DNA of 32,329 bases from Candidatus Izemoplasma sp. (GTDB taxonomy: Bacteria > Bacillota_I > Bacilli_A > Izemoplasmatales > Izemoplasmataceae), in NCBI GenBank assembly GCA_007116245.1, contig SKIW01000090.1, forward strand, positions 1-32,329. Reading direction: 5' to 3'. The position numbers and the translations under genes are program-made. Shown here one piece after another: positions 3,738-30,800 of the stretch. How positions within the stretch are numbered: position 1 is the first letter of the stretch; each line of letters begins with the position of its first letter. The notes beneath the pieces were generated by a model, which saw only the letters and a program-made list of their open reading frames with translations, made no database searches and was not told where the DNA came from.

Positions 3738-5807
3738 ATGGCACGTGCATTTAGTTTAGAAAAAACACGCAATATCGGCATCATGGCACATATCGATGCG
3801 GGTAAAACCACGACAACTGAACGTGTCTTATTTCATACCGGCAAGATTCATAAGATGGGTGAAACACATGATGGTGCTTCCCAAATGGATTGGATGGAAC
3901 AAGAACAAGAACGTGGGATAACGATTACTTCCGCGGCAACCACGGCGTTTTGGAGAGAACACCGTGTCAACATTATCGATACACCAGGTCATGTCGATTT
4001 TACTGTAGAAGTTTCGCGATCATTACGTGTACTCGATGGCGCTGTTACCGTACTTGATGCGCAAGCAGGCGTCGAGCCACAAACGGAAACTGTATGGCGT
4101 CAAGCCACAGAATATCGCGTCCCAAGAATTGTATTCATTAATAAAATGGATAAAATTGGCGCGGATTTCGAATACAGTATTTCAACTATAAAATCGCGTC
4201 TTGGTGTTACAACCGCAGCGATTCATTGGCCCATTGGCGCTGAAAATCAGTTTTCAGGAATCATCGATCTAATCGAAAAACGCGCCTATCATTTTGATGG
4301 TGCTGCTGATGAGGTTGCTAAAGAGATAGAAATTCCTGAACATTTAGCTGACATCGTAGAAGAAAAACGTAACGAACTTATTGAAATCCTTGCGGATTTT
4401 AGTGAAGAAATTATGTTACTCTACTTAGAAGGTGAAGATGTTCCGGTAGAACTTATTAAAGAAACGATTCGTCAAGCCACTTTAAATGTTAAATTTTTCC
4501 CTGTACTCTGTGGAAGTGCCTTCAAAAACAAAGGGGTAAAAATGATGTTAGACGCAGTTATCGATTTCCTTCCGGCACCAACGGATGTCGTTGAAGTCAA
4601 AGGAAAACTTAAAGATGGTAGCGAAATTCGCGTACCTTCTAGCGATGACGAAAAATTCGCTGCATTAGCATTTAAAGTTATGACAGATCCCTTCGTCGGT
4701 AAGCTGACCTTCTTCCGAGTTTATGCAGGGGTATTAAAAAAAGGTTCATACATTTCTAACACCACGAAAAACACAAAAGAAAGAGTTGGGCGTATCTTAC
4801 AGATGCATGCTAACCATCGTGAAGAAATCGACACAGTTTACGCAGGTGATATAGCAGCAGCGGTCGGTCTTAAGAACACAACGACAGGGGATACTTTAGC
4901 ACAAGAAAAATACGATATTATACTTGAACAAATGAAATTCCCTGAACCCGTTATCAGCGTTGCAATCGAACCAAAATCGAAAGGTGACCAAGATAAAATG
5001 GGTATAGCACTTCAAAAGCTTGCCGAAGAAGATCCAACCTTTAGAACATACACCGACGGTGAAACAGGACAAACTATTATTGCAGGTATGGGAGAACTTC
5101 ACTTAGATATTATCGTTGATCGAATGAAACGTGAATTCAAAGTTGAAGCAAACGTAGGTGCACCTCAAATTAGTTACCGTGAAACGATTACTACAATGGC
5201 TGAAATCGAAGGGAAGTTCGTTCGCCAATCTGGTGGACGTGGGCAATACGGACACGTTTGGATTAGATTCGAACCTAACCAAAATAAAGGGTTTGAGTTC
5301 CAAGATAAAGTCGTTGGTGGAGTGGTACCAAGAGAGTATATTCCTGTAGTTCAAAAAGGATTAGAAGAATCACTCGAAAACGGTATCCTAGCAGGGTATC
5401 CAATCATCGACCTTAAAGCGACTTTATATGATGGTTCATACCACGAAGTCGATTCATCTGAAATGGCATTTAAAATTGCCGCATCAATCGCATTAAAACA
5501 AGCAAAAGACCATTGTAAAGCAATTCTATTAGAACCTGTCATGGATGTTGATGTTATCGTCCCAGACGATTACTTAGGAAACGTGATTGGTGATATTACT
5601 TCAAGACGTGGTAAAATCGAAGCGCAAACCCCACGTGGTAACGCGCATCAAATCGAAGCGAAAGTACCACTTGCAGAAATGTTTGGTTACGCAACCAGCT
5701 TACGCTCGAACACTCAAGGTCGTGGAAACTACTCAATGCAGTTCTCACACTATGACCCAGCACCTAAATCAATTGCTGAAGAGATTATCAAAAAACGTAA
5801 CGGCTAA
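3738..5807 (+). CDS. fusA: Translation elongation factor G
   Basis: [23 protein letters not shown] (catalytic His present), NKMDK, domain [18 protein letters not shown]. Confidence 0.99.
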
Positions 5808-5900: not shown

Positions 5901-7091
5901 ATGGGTAAACAAAAATTTGAACGTACAAAGCCCCATGTTAATATTGGAACAATTGGACACGTAGACCATGGGAAAACCACTTTAACAGCTGCAATCGCAA
6001 CTGTTCTATCTAGAAGAGGCATTGGTGATACACAAGCGCAAGATTACGCTTCTATCGATAATGCACCTGAAGAAAAAGAAAGAGGAATTACAATCAATAC
6101 AGCACACATTGAGTATTCTACTGAAGCGCGTCACTATGCACACGTAGACTGCCCAGGACATGCCGACTATGTTAAAAACATGATTACTGGTGCGGCACAA
6201 ATGGACGGAGCAATCTTAGTTGTTAGTGCTTCTGACGGACCGATGCCACAAACACGTGAGCATATCTTATTAAGCCGTCAAGTTGGTGTACCTAAACTTG
6301 TTGTGTACATGAACAAAGTTGATATGGTAGACGACGAAGAATTACTTGAACTCGTAGAAATGGAAATTCGCGATTTATTAACTGAGTACGACTTCCCTGG
6401 AGATGATATTCCAGTTATTCGTGGATCTGCTTTAAAAGCACTCGAAGGTGATGAGAGCTATGAAGACAGCATCATCGAGCTTATGGAAGCAGTCGATACA
6501 TACTTCGATAACCCAGTTCGTGAAACTGAGAAACCATTCTTAATGCCAGTTGAGGATGTATTCAGTATTACTGGACGTGGAACTGTTGCAACTGGACGTG
6601 TAGACCGCGGTACAGTTAAAGTTCAAGAAGAAGTTGAAATCGTTGGTATTAGACCAACACGTAAAACCGTTGTTACTGGTGTTGAAATGTTCCGTAAATT
6701 ATTAGACCGTGCAGAAGCCGGAGACAATATTGGAGCATTATTACGTGGAATCACACGCGACGATGTACAACGTGGACAAGTGCTTGCTAAACCAGGAAGC
6801 GTTACACCACATACTAAGTTCCGTGGTGAAGTTTACGTATTAAGCAAAGAAGAGGGTGGACGTCATACCCCATTCTTCTCAAATTACAGACCACAATTCT
6901 ACTTCCGTACTACAGATGTTACAGGTGTCATCGAATTACCACAAGGTGTTGAGATGGTTATGCCTGGCGACAATGTAGAAATGATTGTAGAACTTATTCA
7001 CCCAATCGCTCTTGAACAAGGAACCAAGTTCTCTATCCGCGAAGGTGGACGCACCGTAGGTGCAGGCGTTGTTGCTGAAGTTACTAAGTAA
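5901..7091 (+). CDS. tuf: Translation elongation factor Tu
   Basis: [41 protein letters not shown]; full-length 396 aa. Confidence 0.99.
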
Positions 7092-7110
7092 GCAATCAAA
7101 TTAAAATGTC

Positions 7111-7162
7111 AAAGGCCATAAAGTTAGGATCATATGATCTTCTATCTTTACGGCCTTTTTTT
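7111..7162 (+). terminator. Rho-independent terminator after tuf
   Basis: AAAGGCCATAAAG...CTTTACGGCCTTT interrupted stem, with inner GATCATATGATC palindrome, followed by T7. Confidence 0.85.
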
Positions 7163-7216
7163 AAAACAGGACCTCAAAGTGCACAAACTAAACTATGACA
7201 TGGAGGAATCGTAGAT

Positions 7217-12685: not shown

Positions 12686-13144
12686 ATGTTTTTTGATTAT
12701 GTAGCACTTACGTTCTTACTCTTTTTCATCACATTTTTCTTTGATGTATTTTACCGCTTTTTAAAACACCGAGAAATCACACCAAGAAAAATGTTTACCT
12801 TTAAAAAGGGCGGTTTATTTGAACACTATATCATTGTTTCAATCGTGCTAATCATAATTGTTACAACACAATTATTAACAGGCTTAAGTCCTTTTGATGA
12901 TAATATCTTTTTCCGAATTATTAACCTTATAACATTTACATCCGTGTCCTTTATCTTTTTAGTTTTCATACTCGTATTTATTTTTTATTTCTTTATGGTC
13001 GTTTACGCTAAAATACGCAAAATAGAAGACCGACAAAACTTTTTAAGAACCCATACTCACCGCATCATAACAAGCGCATTTATAATTGCGGTAGTGTTTA
13101 TTGGTTTTTGGTTAATCCAAGGAATTATCGAACTCATAAACTAA
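12686..13144 (+). CDS. Hypothetical integral membrane protein
   Basis: 152-aa ORF with several hydrophobic segments; SD AGGAGG overlaps ychF stop (TAGGAGG). Confidence 0.75.
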   Translation: MFFDYVALTFLLFFITFFFDVFYRFLKHREITPRKMFTFKKGGLFEHYIIVSIVLIIIVTTQLLTGLSPFDDNIFFRIINLITFTSVSFIFLVFILVFIFYFFMVVYAKIRKIEDRQNFLRTHTHRIITSAFIIAVVFIGFWLIQGIIELIN

Positions 13145-27460: not shown

Positions 27461-29524
27461 ATGAAAAGACTCGTTATAGTAGAATCACCAAGTAAGTCAA
27501 AAACAATCAAGCAATACCTCGGTAATGATTATGAAGTATTATCCTCAAAAGGCCATATCCGTGATCTATCAATCTCGAATGTTGGAGGTCTAGGACTGGA
27601 TATCGAGAATAATTTTACACCTAAATATGACATTATTAAAGATAAAGAAAAAACCGTAAGAGACTTGAATAAAGCAGCTAAAAAGGTTGATGAAATCTAT
27701 CTAGCTACTGACCCGGATCGTGAAGGTGAAGCCATAAGCTGGCATTTACAAGAGGTTTTAACAACGAAAGATAAGCCGATCAAACGCGTGATTTTTAACG
27801 AAGTTACAAAAAGCGCAGTGACTGAGGCTTTTCAGCAACCGCGTGATATCGATTTAGCGTTAGTATCAAGTCAAGAAACGCGTCGTATTTTAGATAGGAT
27901 TATCGGGTTTAAACTCAGCAAGCTACTTCAAAATAAAATAAAATCAAAATCCGCGGGTAGAGTGCAAAGTGCAGCGTTAAAAATTCTCGTTGAACGCGAA
28001 AAAGAAATCGATGCGTTTACACCAGAAGAGTATTGGAGAGTTAAAGCGATTTTCGAGCAATTTGAAGCAGAACTGGCCCGCGTTGATAAACGAAAAGCGA
28101 AGCTTACAAACGAAGCAGAGACAACTAAATTAATCGCTACGTTAGGTAAAACTTTTACGATTGATCAAGTAAGATCACGAGAACGTAAGCGCGCAGCAAA
28201 ACCACCATTCACAACATCTTCACTACAACAAGAAGCATCGAATAAGCTAAATTTCACAGCACAAAAAACAATGTTAATCGCACAGCGCCTCTACGAGGGA
28301 ATCGAGTTAGCCTCTGAAACAGTAGGGTTAATCACTTATATGAGAACGGATTCTAATCGCTTGAGTGATACATTTGTTTATCCTGCTAAAAGTTATATTG
28401 AAGAAACATATGGTAAAGAATATGTTGGTACAAAGTCACGCCATAAACATAAAAAGAATATTCAGGATGCGCATGAAGCGATTCGACCCACAGCAATTAA
28501 GTATCATCCAGATAAGATAAAAACGTATTTATCAAGAGATGAGTTAAGACTTTACACATTGATTTATCAACGTGCAGTGGCATCTTTAATGCGCTCAGCG
28601 CGTATTAATACCACGACTATCTTTTTGAACAACGCAAATACCGTCTTCAAAGCACGCGCACAAGAACTCACATTTGACGGTTATTTAAAAGTGTATGGAA
28701 AATACGAAAGCCTTGAACTTAAACAACTACCAGAGCTAAAAGAAGGAAATACGCTAGAAGCAAAATCATTTAATCCTTCTCAACACTTTACTCAACCACC
28801 GGCACGCTTTACAGAAGCAACACTCATTAAGGAGATGGAAGAACTCGGTATTGGGAGACCTAGTACGTATTCGCAAACCATATCTACCCTTAAAAACCGT
28901 AAATACGTCACTATAGAAGAAAAGAAATTCATGCCTACGGATCAAGGAAAACTCACTATCGAGAAACTAGATGGATTCTTTAGCCAGATTATTAACGTCG
29001 ATTACACCGCTAAAATGGAAAATATACTCGATGATATCGCACAAAATAAAGAAGAACAAACGGTTATAATTTCAAACTTCTATCACACGTTTATTCCATT
29101 AGTTGACAAAGCGAATCGTGAGATGGAAAAAACAGCACCGAAAACAACGGGCGAAACATGTCCGAAATGTGGTAAAGAAATGGTTTACCGTGAATCAAGG
29201 TACGGAACATTCGAAGCATGCAGTGGGTATCCGGATTGTAAATACATTAAACCGAATGGCGATAAACCAGAACCGCCTAAAAGCACAAACCTAAAATGCC
29301 CTAAATGTCAAAAAGGAACCATTGTAGAACGCGTTGCTAAAAGAGGAAAAAGCAAAGGCAATAGTTTCTACGCGTGTGATAATTTCCCTAAATGCAAGCA
29401 TATATTATCTGGGAAACCAACGCATGAACACTGTCCTAAATGCAACAACTTAATGGTAGAAACAGAAGATGGAACGATTCGTTGTGATGACCAAAAAACC
29501 TGTGGCTTTGTGCAAAAACCATAA
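27461..29524 (+). CDS. topA: DNA topoisomerase I (type IA) with three C-terminal zinc fingers
   Basis: KRLVIVESPSKSKTIKQYLG, TDPDREGEAISWHL, GLITYMRTDSNRLS, ELGIGRPSTYS; three CPKC-type zinc fingers. Confidence 0.98.
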   Translation: MKRLVIVESPSKSKTIKQYLGNDYEVLSSKGHIRDLSISNVGGLGLDIENNFTPKYDIIKDKEKTVRDLNKAAKKVDEIYLATDPDREGEAISWHLQEVLTTKDKPIKRVIFNEVTKSAVTEAFQQPRDIDLALVSSQETRRILDRIIGFKLSKLLQNKIKSKSAGRVQSAALKILVEREKEIDAFTPEEYWRVKAIFEQFEAELARVDKRKAKLTNEAETTKLIATLGKTFTIDQVRSRERKRAAKPPFTTSSLQQEASNKLNFTAQKTMLIAQRLYEGIELASETVGLITYMRTDSNRLSDTFVYPAKSYIEETYGKEYVGTKSRHKHKKNIQDAHEAIRPTAIKYHPDKIKTYLSRDELRLYTLIYQRAVASLMRSARINTTTIFLNNANTVFKARAQELTFDGYLKVYGKYESLELKQLPELKEGNTLEAKSFNPSQHFTQPPARFTEATLIKEMEELGIGRPSTYSQTISTLKNRKYVTIEEKKFMPTDQGKLTIEKLDGFFSQIINVDYTAKMENILDDIAQNKEEQTVIISNFYHTFIPLVDKANREMEKTAPKTTGETCPKCGKEMVYRESRYGTFEACSGYPDCKYIKPNGDKPEPPKSTNLKCPKCQKGTIVERVAKRGKSKGNSFYACDNFPKCKHILSGKPTHEHCPKCNNLMVETEDGTIRCDDQKTCGFVQKP

Positions 29525-29623
29525 GTGGTCAATCCCTTTAGAGTTTAAATAGTACCTTATTATCGTGATATTGTAGCTTACTTAAACTTTAGTGAAACAA
29601 AGAAATAATTGAGCTTCAAAACA

Positions 29624-29652
29624 TTGACACAAAAAAATGATTGTGGTATTAT
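29624..29652 (+). promoter_or_regulatory. Promoter of intergenic small RNA candidate
   Basis: TTGACA (29624-29629), 17-bp spacer, TGG-TATTAT (29647-29652). Confidence 0.8.
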
Positions 29653-29658
29653 TAAGGT

Positions 29659-29760
29659 GCGACTGAGAAGTCGCGACTTATCCCTTACATAGCATGGTGA
29701 ATAATTTTTTATTCACACATCCCCTTCCTTAATCCGCCGAGAGGCGGATTTTCCCTTTTT
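29659..29760 (+). ncRNA. Candidate structured C-rich small RNA of unknown family
   Basis: Downstream of a strong promoter: GCGACT-GAGA-AGTCGC hairpin, ATGGTGAATAA-TTTT-TTATTCACACAT hairpin, single-stranded TATCCCTT and ATCCCCTTCC, then terminator AATCCGCC-GAGA-GGCGGATT. No plausible ORF. Confidence 0.7.
29731..29760 (+). terminator. Terminator of small RNA candidate
   Basis: AATCCGCC-GAGA-GGCGGATT followed by TTCCCTTTTT. Confidence 0.85.
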
Positions 29761-29796
29761 ATAGGAATATCCTTTTTAAAGCACGCGTTTTTATGG

Positions 29797-29802
29797 TATA
29801 AT
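29797..29802 (+). promoter_or_regulatory. ftsY promoter, extended -10
   Basis: TGG-TATAAT separate from and downstream of the small-RNA terminator. Confidence 0.65.
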
Positions 29803-29834: not shown

Positions 29835-30800
29835 ATGGGATTCATTAAAGAGTTATTTCAATCAAAAAAACGTAAAGAAAAAGCACAAAAATATAATATT
29901 GGTATGAAAAAAACACGCCAGAGCGTGTTTAATCAGCTTGATGAATTATTACAAAAAAACGTTAAAATTACAGACGAATTATTTGAAGATATTGAAGAAA
30001 TATTTATTATGGCGGATATTGGTGTTAATACCGTTATTTCCATGGTGAATCATTTACGAGAGAATGTCGAAGTTAATAATGTAAAAAATGCGGAAGACTT
30101 AAAAGAGATGATTGTCGAAGAAATGTTTAAACGTTATGTTAAAGAAGATATCGTCGATACGAACCTTGACACTGAGCATAATCTTGCTGTCTTATTGTTT
30201 GTCGGTGTAAACGGAGTAGGTAAAACAACTACAATCGGAAAAGTCGCACATCTTTTAAAACAAAAAAATAAACGAGTTATGATGGTTGCGGGGGACACTT
30301 TTCGTGCTGGTGCAATCAATCAATTACGTATTTGGAGCGAACGGGTTGGGTGTGACTTTTATGAAAAAGCACCAGGTTCTGATCCATCTAGTGTAATGTT
30401 TGAAGCAATACAATATGCTAAAAAAAATAATATTGATGTCTTGCTTTGTGATACCGCAGGACGATTGCAAAATAAGAAGAATTTAATGAATGAGTTATCA
30501 AAAATACATCGTGTTATTGGTCGTGAGATAGAAGACGCACCACATGAGACACTGTTAGTCATCGATGCTACAACAGGTCAAAACGGTTTGAGTCAAGCAA
30601 AGATTTTCAATGAAGTCACAACACTAACCGGCGTGATTTTAACTAAACTTGATGGCACCGCTAAAGGTGGTATTGCTCTTGCGGTAAAAGATACACTTAA
30701 TATACCGATAAAAATGATTGGTTTAGGGGAAAAACTAGAAGACCTTGAGTATTTTGATATCGAGGAATATATTTACGGATTATTTGCGGATATCGTCTAA
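29835..30800 (+). CDS. ftsY: Signal recognition particle receptor FtsY (NG domain)
   Basis: GVNGVGKTTTIGKVAHLL, GDTFRAGAINQL, DTAGRLQNKKNLMNEL, TKLDGTAKGG. Confidence 0.97.
   Translation: MGFIKELFQSKKRKEKAQKYNIGMKKTRQSVFNQLDELLQKNVKITDELFEDIEEIFIMADIGVNTVISMVNHLRENVEVNNVKNAEDLKEMIVEEMFKRYVKEDIVDTNLDTEHNLAVLLFVGVNGVGKTTTIGKVAHLLKQKNKRVMMVAGDTFRAGAINQLRIWSERVGCDFYEKAPGSDPSSVMFEAIQYAKKNNIDVLLCDTAGRLQNKKNLMNELSKIHRVIGREIEDAPHETLLVIDATTGQNGLSQAKIFNEVTTLTGVILTKLDGTAKGGIALAVKDTLNIPIKMIGLGEKLEDLEYFDIEEYIYGLFADIV

Follow-up and report, generated by a model that had tools for sequence, protein, structure and literature searches.

Among the described small RNAs (sRNAs) closest to the locus reported here, UCCC seeds act on Shine-Dalgarno (SD) regions in RsaE/RoxS, FsrA, and LhrC (PMC4409812, PMC4132741). 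RsaE has been called the sole sRNA besides 6S that is common to Staphylococcus and Bacillus, and RoxS presents the sequence CCCCUUUGUU duplicated around CRR1 and CRR3 (PMC4409812). The window analyzed here is a stretch of 32,329 nucleotides, a contig in the 1.29-Mb draft genome of a wall-less marine bacterium (Candidatus Izemoplasma sp., SKIW01000090.1). We conclude that the gap between its topA and ftsY genes holds a member of a genuine sRNA family not catalogued before; the family is of a functional kind already known and has an unusual branch carried by phages. We found no description of this sRNA in the literature on Izemoplasma or Acholeplasma sRNAs.

At the level of the locus, the sRNA gene lies between two kept neighbors, topA upstream (27461-29524, + strand) and ftsY downstream (29835-30800, + strand). 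An earlier note on this DNA had proposed a self-contained transcription unit in the gap, and both its promoter and its terminator are present and kept in relatives. The promoter found by sequence scan (29624-29652, + strand) is a TG-extended TTGACA-17-nt spacer-TATTAT, with the -35 box at 29624-29629 and the -10 box at 29647-29652; of the family's 47 topA-ftsY copies, 44 keep TTGACA and 46 the TG extension. The intrinsic terminator (29731-29760, + strand), indicated by the terminator scan, the fold, and helix changes, has an 8-bp stem with a GAGA loop (AATCCGCC-GAGA-GGCGGATT, 29731-29750) and then a T-rich tail. The predicted sRNA (29658-29760, + strand, around 103 nt) matches the covariance model with 129.6 bits; its 5′ end was deduced from the -10 box (+/-3 nt) and its 3′ end was set at the first terminator. 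Past this terminator, 43 of the 47 relatives present a second short hairpin and a T-run (CCC..GGG plus T-run), and the window has a possible second small terminator hairpin there (AGGA-AUA-UCCU-UUUU, 29763-29777, + strand), so the 3′ end may be at about 29760 or about 29777. Downstream of the sRNA gene, ftsY has a separate promoter, as had been claimed (TTTAAA-16-TATAAT, 29775-29802). When scanning the region, two terminators were found against 0.2 expected, which is beyond chance, and three promoter sites against 2.7 expected, which alone is not. Because the promoter by itself is within chance for a region of such composition, we base the claim of an sRNA gene on conservation.

The fold of the predicted RNA (-32.9 kcal/mol, z = -5.3) gave exactly the three hairpins foreseen in the earlier note, with two C-rich tracts unpaired both in the window and in relatives. 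A 5′ hairpin with a GAGA (GNRA-type) loop occupies the extreme 5′ end (29658-29675). It is followed by C-rich region 1, ACUUAUCCCUUACAUAGC (29676-29693), by hairpin 2, with 11 bp and one A bulge (AUG GUGAAUAA ... UUAUUCAC A CAU, 29694-29720), and by C-rich region 2, ACAUCCCCUUCCUU (29717-29730), whose CCCCUUCCUU part is unpaired from around 29721; all of them lie on the + strand. Across the 47 copies, mean pairwise identity was 97% for the 21-nt core of region 1 and 99% for region 2, and 29-30% for the DNA just upstream and downstream of the sRNA, which is about background for AT-rich sequence. Most distant families retain the AUCCC(C/U)U of region 1.

The helices drift while the C-rich seeds stay near-invariant, and a covariation check of the kind suggested in the same note found compensatory changes well above shuffles. 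In a MAFFT alignment built without structure, 99.2% of the pair cells were standard pairs, and both-side changes occurred at 11 of 25 pairs (7.1 +/- 1.1 when shuffled) and in 71 cells (15 when shuffled). Its covariation score of 0.30 fell to 0.02-0.05 in slid versions. A wider, model-fitted alignment, which is biased towards structure, presented both-side variation at 23 of 25 pairs and in 250 cells against 55 in shuffles. The terminator helix changed on both sides at 4/8 pairs in the first alignment and at 8/8 in the wider one. In the 5′ hairpin, sequence drifts freely and pairing stays, with both-side changes in five of six pairs and 100% pairing. In the 5′ hairpin, and in the terminator when the wider set is considered, pairing is constrained and sequence is not; in the C-rich segments, which are unpaired, the constraint is on sequence.

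The region was also said to contain no plausible ORF. A 12-codon frame (ATGGTGAAT...) is open in the window and could be taken for a small-peptide gene (MVNNFLFTHPLP), but no SD lies ahead of its ATG, and neither the frame nor the stop is kept in relatives, where its spacing from the second C-rich motif falls in all three frames (15/24/8). Since the frame varies in this way, we regard the small-peptide reading as already refuted and leave it almost no probability.

Regarding its distribution, a blastn search with positions 29600-29780 gave matches in 52 of 101 genomes, and a first covariance model was built from 32 members. In the window's own family (Izemoplasmataceae-type 'Ca. Izimaplasma'), the covariance model found the sRNA in 47 of 49 genomes, and the two genomes without it are 67-69% complete; topA and/or ftsY adjoin it in 47 copies. 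In a class sample, the first model was positive in 54/397 genomes and a second model in 80/397, and the latter was also positive in 35/396 genomes of a phylum sample; both samples are subsets of mostly draft genomes, and the E-values of these home-made models are rough. Distant members score around 30-80 bits with the second model and present the order 5′ hairpin, (U)UAUCCCCUA, hairpin GUG..CAC, A(A/C)AUCCCCUU, and terminator; the far end has drifted somewhat. Position lends independent support: of 38 distant loci, 24 have topA upstream in the same orientation, either directly adjacent or at one gene's distance, and 16 have ftsY as the first or second downstream gene. The topA-ftsY position is common to the own family, Acholeplasmataceae (our family f12, considered Acholeplasmataceae-type from one genome that corresponds to an Acholeplasmataceae record), and other families. 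To our knowledge, sequence-conserved trans-acting sRNAs seldom span beyond a genus or family.

In another family, f18, the sRNA has neighbors other than topA and ftsY, and one f18 genome carries two tandem copies around 450 nt apart (L127, 3504-3614 and 4063-4133). Several sister genera lack the sRNA, and their topA-ftsY gap is only around 95-155 nt; where genera belonging to the same sister family retain a degenerate copy, it is around 190-225 nt. The gap thus shrinks where the sRNA is missing, as expected of a dispensable unit. Upstream of ftsY in L311, L314, L319, and L324, all from sRNA-less sister genera, the gap measures around 95-105 nt. These genera amount to a series of natural deletions that could serve functional comparison. 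No sRNA match appeared in model searches of the listed mycoplasma-like genomes that read TGA inside genes. A pattern match in a Verrucomicrobiales bin (L168) was discarded as a chance match lacking the structure.

Many own-family genomes harbor one to three further copies, and the second copies in many genomes carry their own promoter-like sites. In one copy group, the -35 boxes are weaker and the sRNA is found where a large gene ends, close to a gene for an FtsX-type permease; the only such large gene with a Pfam match encodes an Ig-like-domain surface protein. In L143-L152, this second chromosomal copy sits at the 3′ end of the large gene, which is fast-changing and adjoins the permease gene, and since the promoters there are weaker than that of the topA-ftsY copy, these copies are probably regulated differently. 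Another copy group maintains the same C-rich segments (ACUUAUCCCUUACAUAGCAUG and CACAUCCCCUUCC) with a mostly different middle hairpin and terminator. In several chromosomes, copies of this latter group adjoin tRNA or tmRNA genes.

On four IMG/VR contigs, two large serine recombinases are encoded in tandem, and the copies follow 40-60 nt downstream (L222, 11309-11407; L223, around 7080-7175; L224, around 12895-12990; and L225, 2728-2830). These recombinases measure around 566 and 550 aa on the four viral contigs and in L138. A tyrosine integrase together with an Ant antirepressor was identified on three of the four contigs, and repressor-like HTH genes on the one contig examined for them. The plasmid of Tenericutes bacterium MO-XQ presents the same layout (copy at L227, 6001-6075), with the recombinases deduced from matching gene lengths and positions. 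We read the copies of this group as belonging to temperate-phage or phage-derived elements, the MO-XQ plasmid being perhaps a phage-plasmid. L399, a fifth viral contig (81.8 kb), contains a variant copy at 4364-4480 with an enlarged middle hairpin in a different context; no tandem recombinase genes were found beside it within the 8.8 kb examined, and it is possibly an independent capture. A known phage collection gave no match to the sRNA.

The locus could alternatively be a cis element, either a topA 3′ UTR or terminator or a leader affecting ftsY, sometimes processed to a stable fragment. At the conserved locus the sRNA always reads in the topA/ftsY direction, and the gap has no other strong same-strand terminator, as such an element would have it. 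However, the sRNA has a conserved promoter of its own, ftsY retains its own promoter downstream, and there are copies at other sites next to unrelated genes, as well as phage and plasmid copies, which makes the cis reading improbable. The family is a conserved autonomous gene with a conserved structure, invariant unpaired seeds, multiple copies, and phage carriage. The autonomous C-rich sRNA proposed in the earlier note thus receives strong support from conservation, covariation, synteny, paralogs, and the absent ORF.

At the functional level, we consider it reasonably probable that this is the gene for a trans-acting regulatory sRNA of an uncatalogued family, whose seeds most likely pair with SD regions and block translation. 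The sRNA would be transcribed from its own strong promoter and end at its own terminator, and its 5′-terminal hairpin and terminator would presumably shield the RNA ends. The unpaired C-rich seeds (U)UAUCCCYUA and ACAUCCCCUU would flank the middle hairpin, one on each side, most likely pairing with the G-rich SD regions of several mRNAs and blocking their translation as in RsaE/RoxS and LhrC. Expression, pairing with mRNAs, and repression are what we infer, and an anti-SD role is plausible as the best reading by analogy. That analogy is strong, since RsaE/RoxS, FsrA, and LhrC use their UCCC seeds in this way.

We looked for an SD signal in stretches of 400, 369, and 400 kb from three relatives, comprising around 1,125 genes and about one fifth of the three genomes. 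Seed complementarity to the translation starts of these genes was not above that of shuffled seeds, in a test that is weak for few short-seed targets. Conserved target candidates among three-way orthologues of the three genomes were not above shuffles either, again with low power for a handful of such targets. In the own genome, no perfect complement of 11-12 nt was found outside the sRNA gene; in relatives, most long perfect-complement matches are the sRNA genes, and exact 10-nt complements of the second seed fall within coding regions and not at SD sites. An excess of AAGGGGATGT over its reversed control was rejected as an SD signal: it is due to coding sequence, with the sense sites mostly in one frame (GGG GAT codons), and the control was unfair because it contains TAG.

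RNAs such as 6S or the Csr type titrate or assemble other proteins, and the RNA described here could likewise act mainly via a protein, with the C-rich motifs around the hairpin as sites of an RNA-binding protein titrated or assembled on it. The unpaired motifs are near-invariant across families, which drifting mRNA targets would not obviously require, the mRNA target signal was not found in the searched stretches, and the copies are multiplied in some genomes. Nevertheless, the motif is that of proven base-pairing sRNAs in low-GC bacteria, and we know of no C-motif-binding sponge RNA in these bacteria; we see action via a protein as unlikely, although less so than the cis element. The near-invariance of the seeds suggests a generic partner, be it SD sequences as a class or a conserved protein.

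Returning to the sRNA as a whole, the same place and the same C-rich stretches across families, together with viral carriage, point to a probably ancient regulator of general scope. Several families share it at a fixed locus, and these lineages, which lead towards the genome-reduced Mollicutes, have hardly been studied for riboregulation. We tentatively propose, as a possibility short of an even chance, that temperate phages took up this core sRNA of wall-less and related bacteria. If so, the phage copy, which keeps the seeds but differs in scaffold and promoter and sits beside recombinase genes, could supplement or seize the host sRNA network during lysogeny. Cultured relatives exist (PMC8397711), and with the seeds copied onto phages, both the function and the phage takeover are directly testable.

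As for the relation to known families, no Rfam family matches the sRNA at the gathering threshold, and the window has no match to SRP RNA, 6S, tmRNA, RNase P, or riboswitches at that score, as the first reading of the sequence had anticipated. Relaxed thresholds gave just weak and inconsistent matches, with unrelated best matches for other members. The same reading had likened the RNA to RsaE in architecture alone, and the scores agree: RsaE/RoxS (RF01820, cut-off 79) gave 20.9 bits for the window and 18.6, 14.1, and 15.6 for other members. Two f12 members reached 28.7 and 24.3 bits with LhrC (RF00616, cut-off 110), which was not listed among the Rfam matches of the window. With both scores far below their cut-offs and no Rfam match, we do not file the sRNA as RsaE or LhrC. 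A divergent orthologue of either would be a very unlikely explanation: RsaE is the most plausible sub-threshold match of the window, aligning a hairpin plus CAUCCCCUU, and LhrC has its two f12 matches, but the other members have unrelated best matches, none of the 397 class genomes holds an RsaE above the cut-off, although the B. subtilis control was detected, and the RoxS repeat is absent, with CCCCUUCCU or CCCCUUUAAU in the sRNA members instead. The sole weak RsaE match of the class (L226) does not fit the sRNA model.

Compared to C-rich (UCCC) sRNAs in general, the locus is an autonomous unit within 70-150 nt with a terminator, judged from a promoter and terminator that are present and kept, for a predicted transcript; its UCCC motifs are unpaired and conserved. 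With RsaE/RoxS of Staphylococcus and Bacillus it shares a length of around 100 nt, several unpaired C-rich regions, broad conservation, and one C-rich region just before the terminator (CAUCCCCUU in common), preceded by a hairpin. It differs in the 5′ hairpin and in the missing repeat; membership of RsaE/RoxS also entails a ResD/SrrA-dependent promoter and NO induction. Listeria LhrC is likewise multicopy, with redundant UCCC motifs, one of them single-stranded between hairpins, but its motifs also lie in loop A and the terminator loop, whereas both motifs of the family described here are outside loops. FsrA and CsfG of B. subtilis and the Rsa RNAs of S. aureus also present C-rich seeds in unpaired regions, a likeness of kind only. 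Finally, AgvB and AsxR, the anti-sRNAs of EHEC prophages, are phage-borne sRNAs acting on an sRNA circuit of the core genome; AgvB imitates a host sRNA's target, whereas the phage copies found here bear the host sRNA's own seeds.
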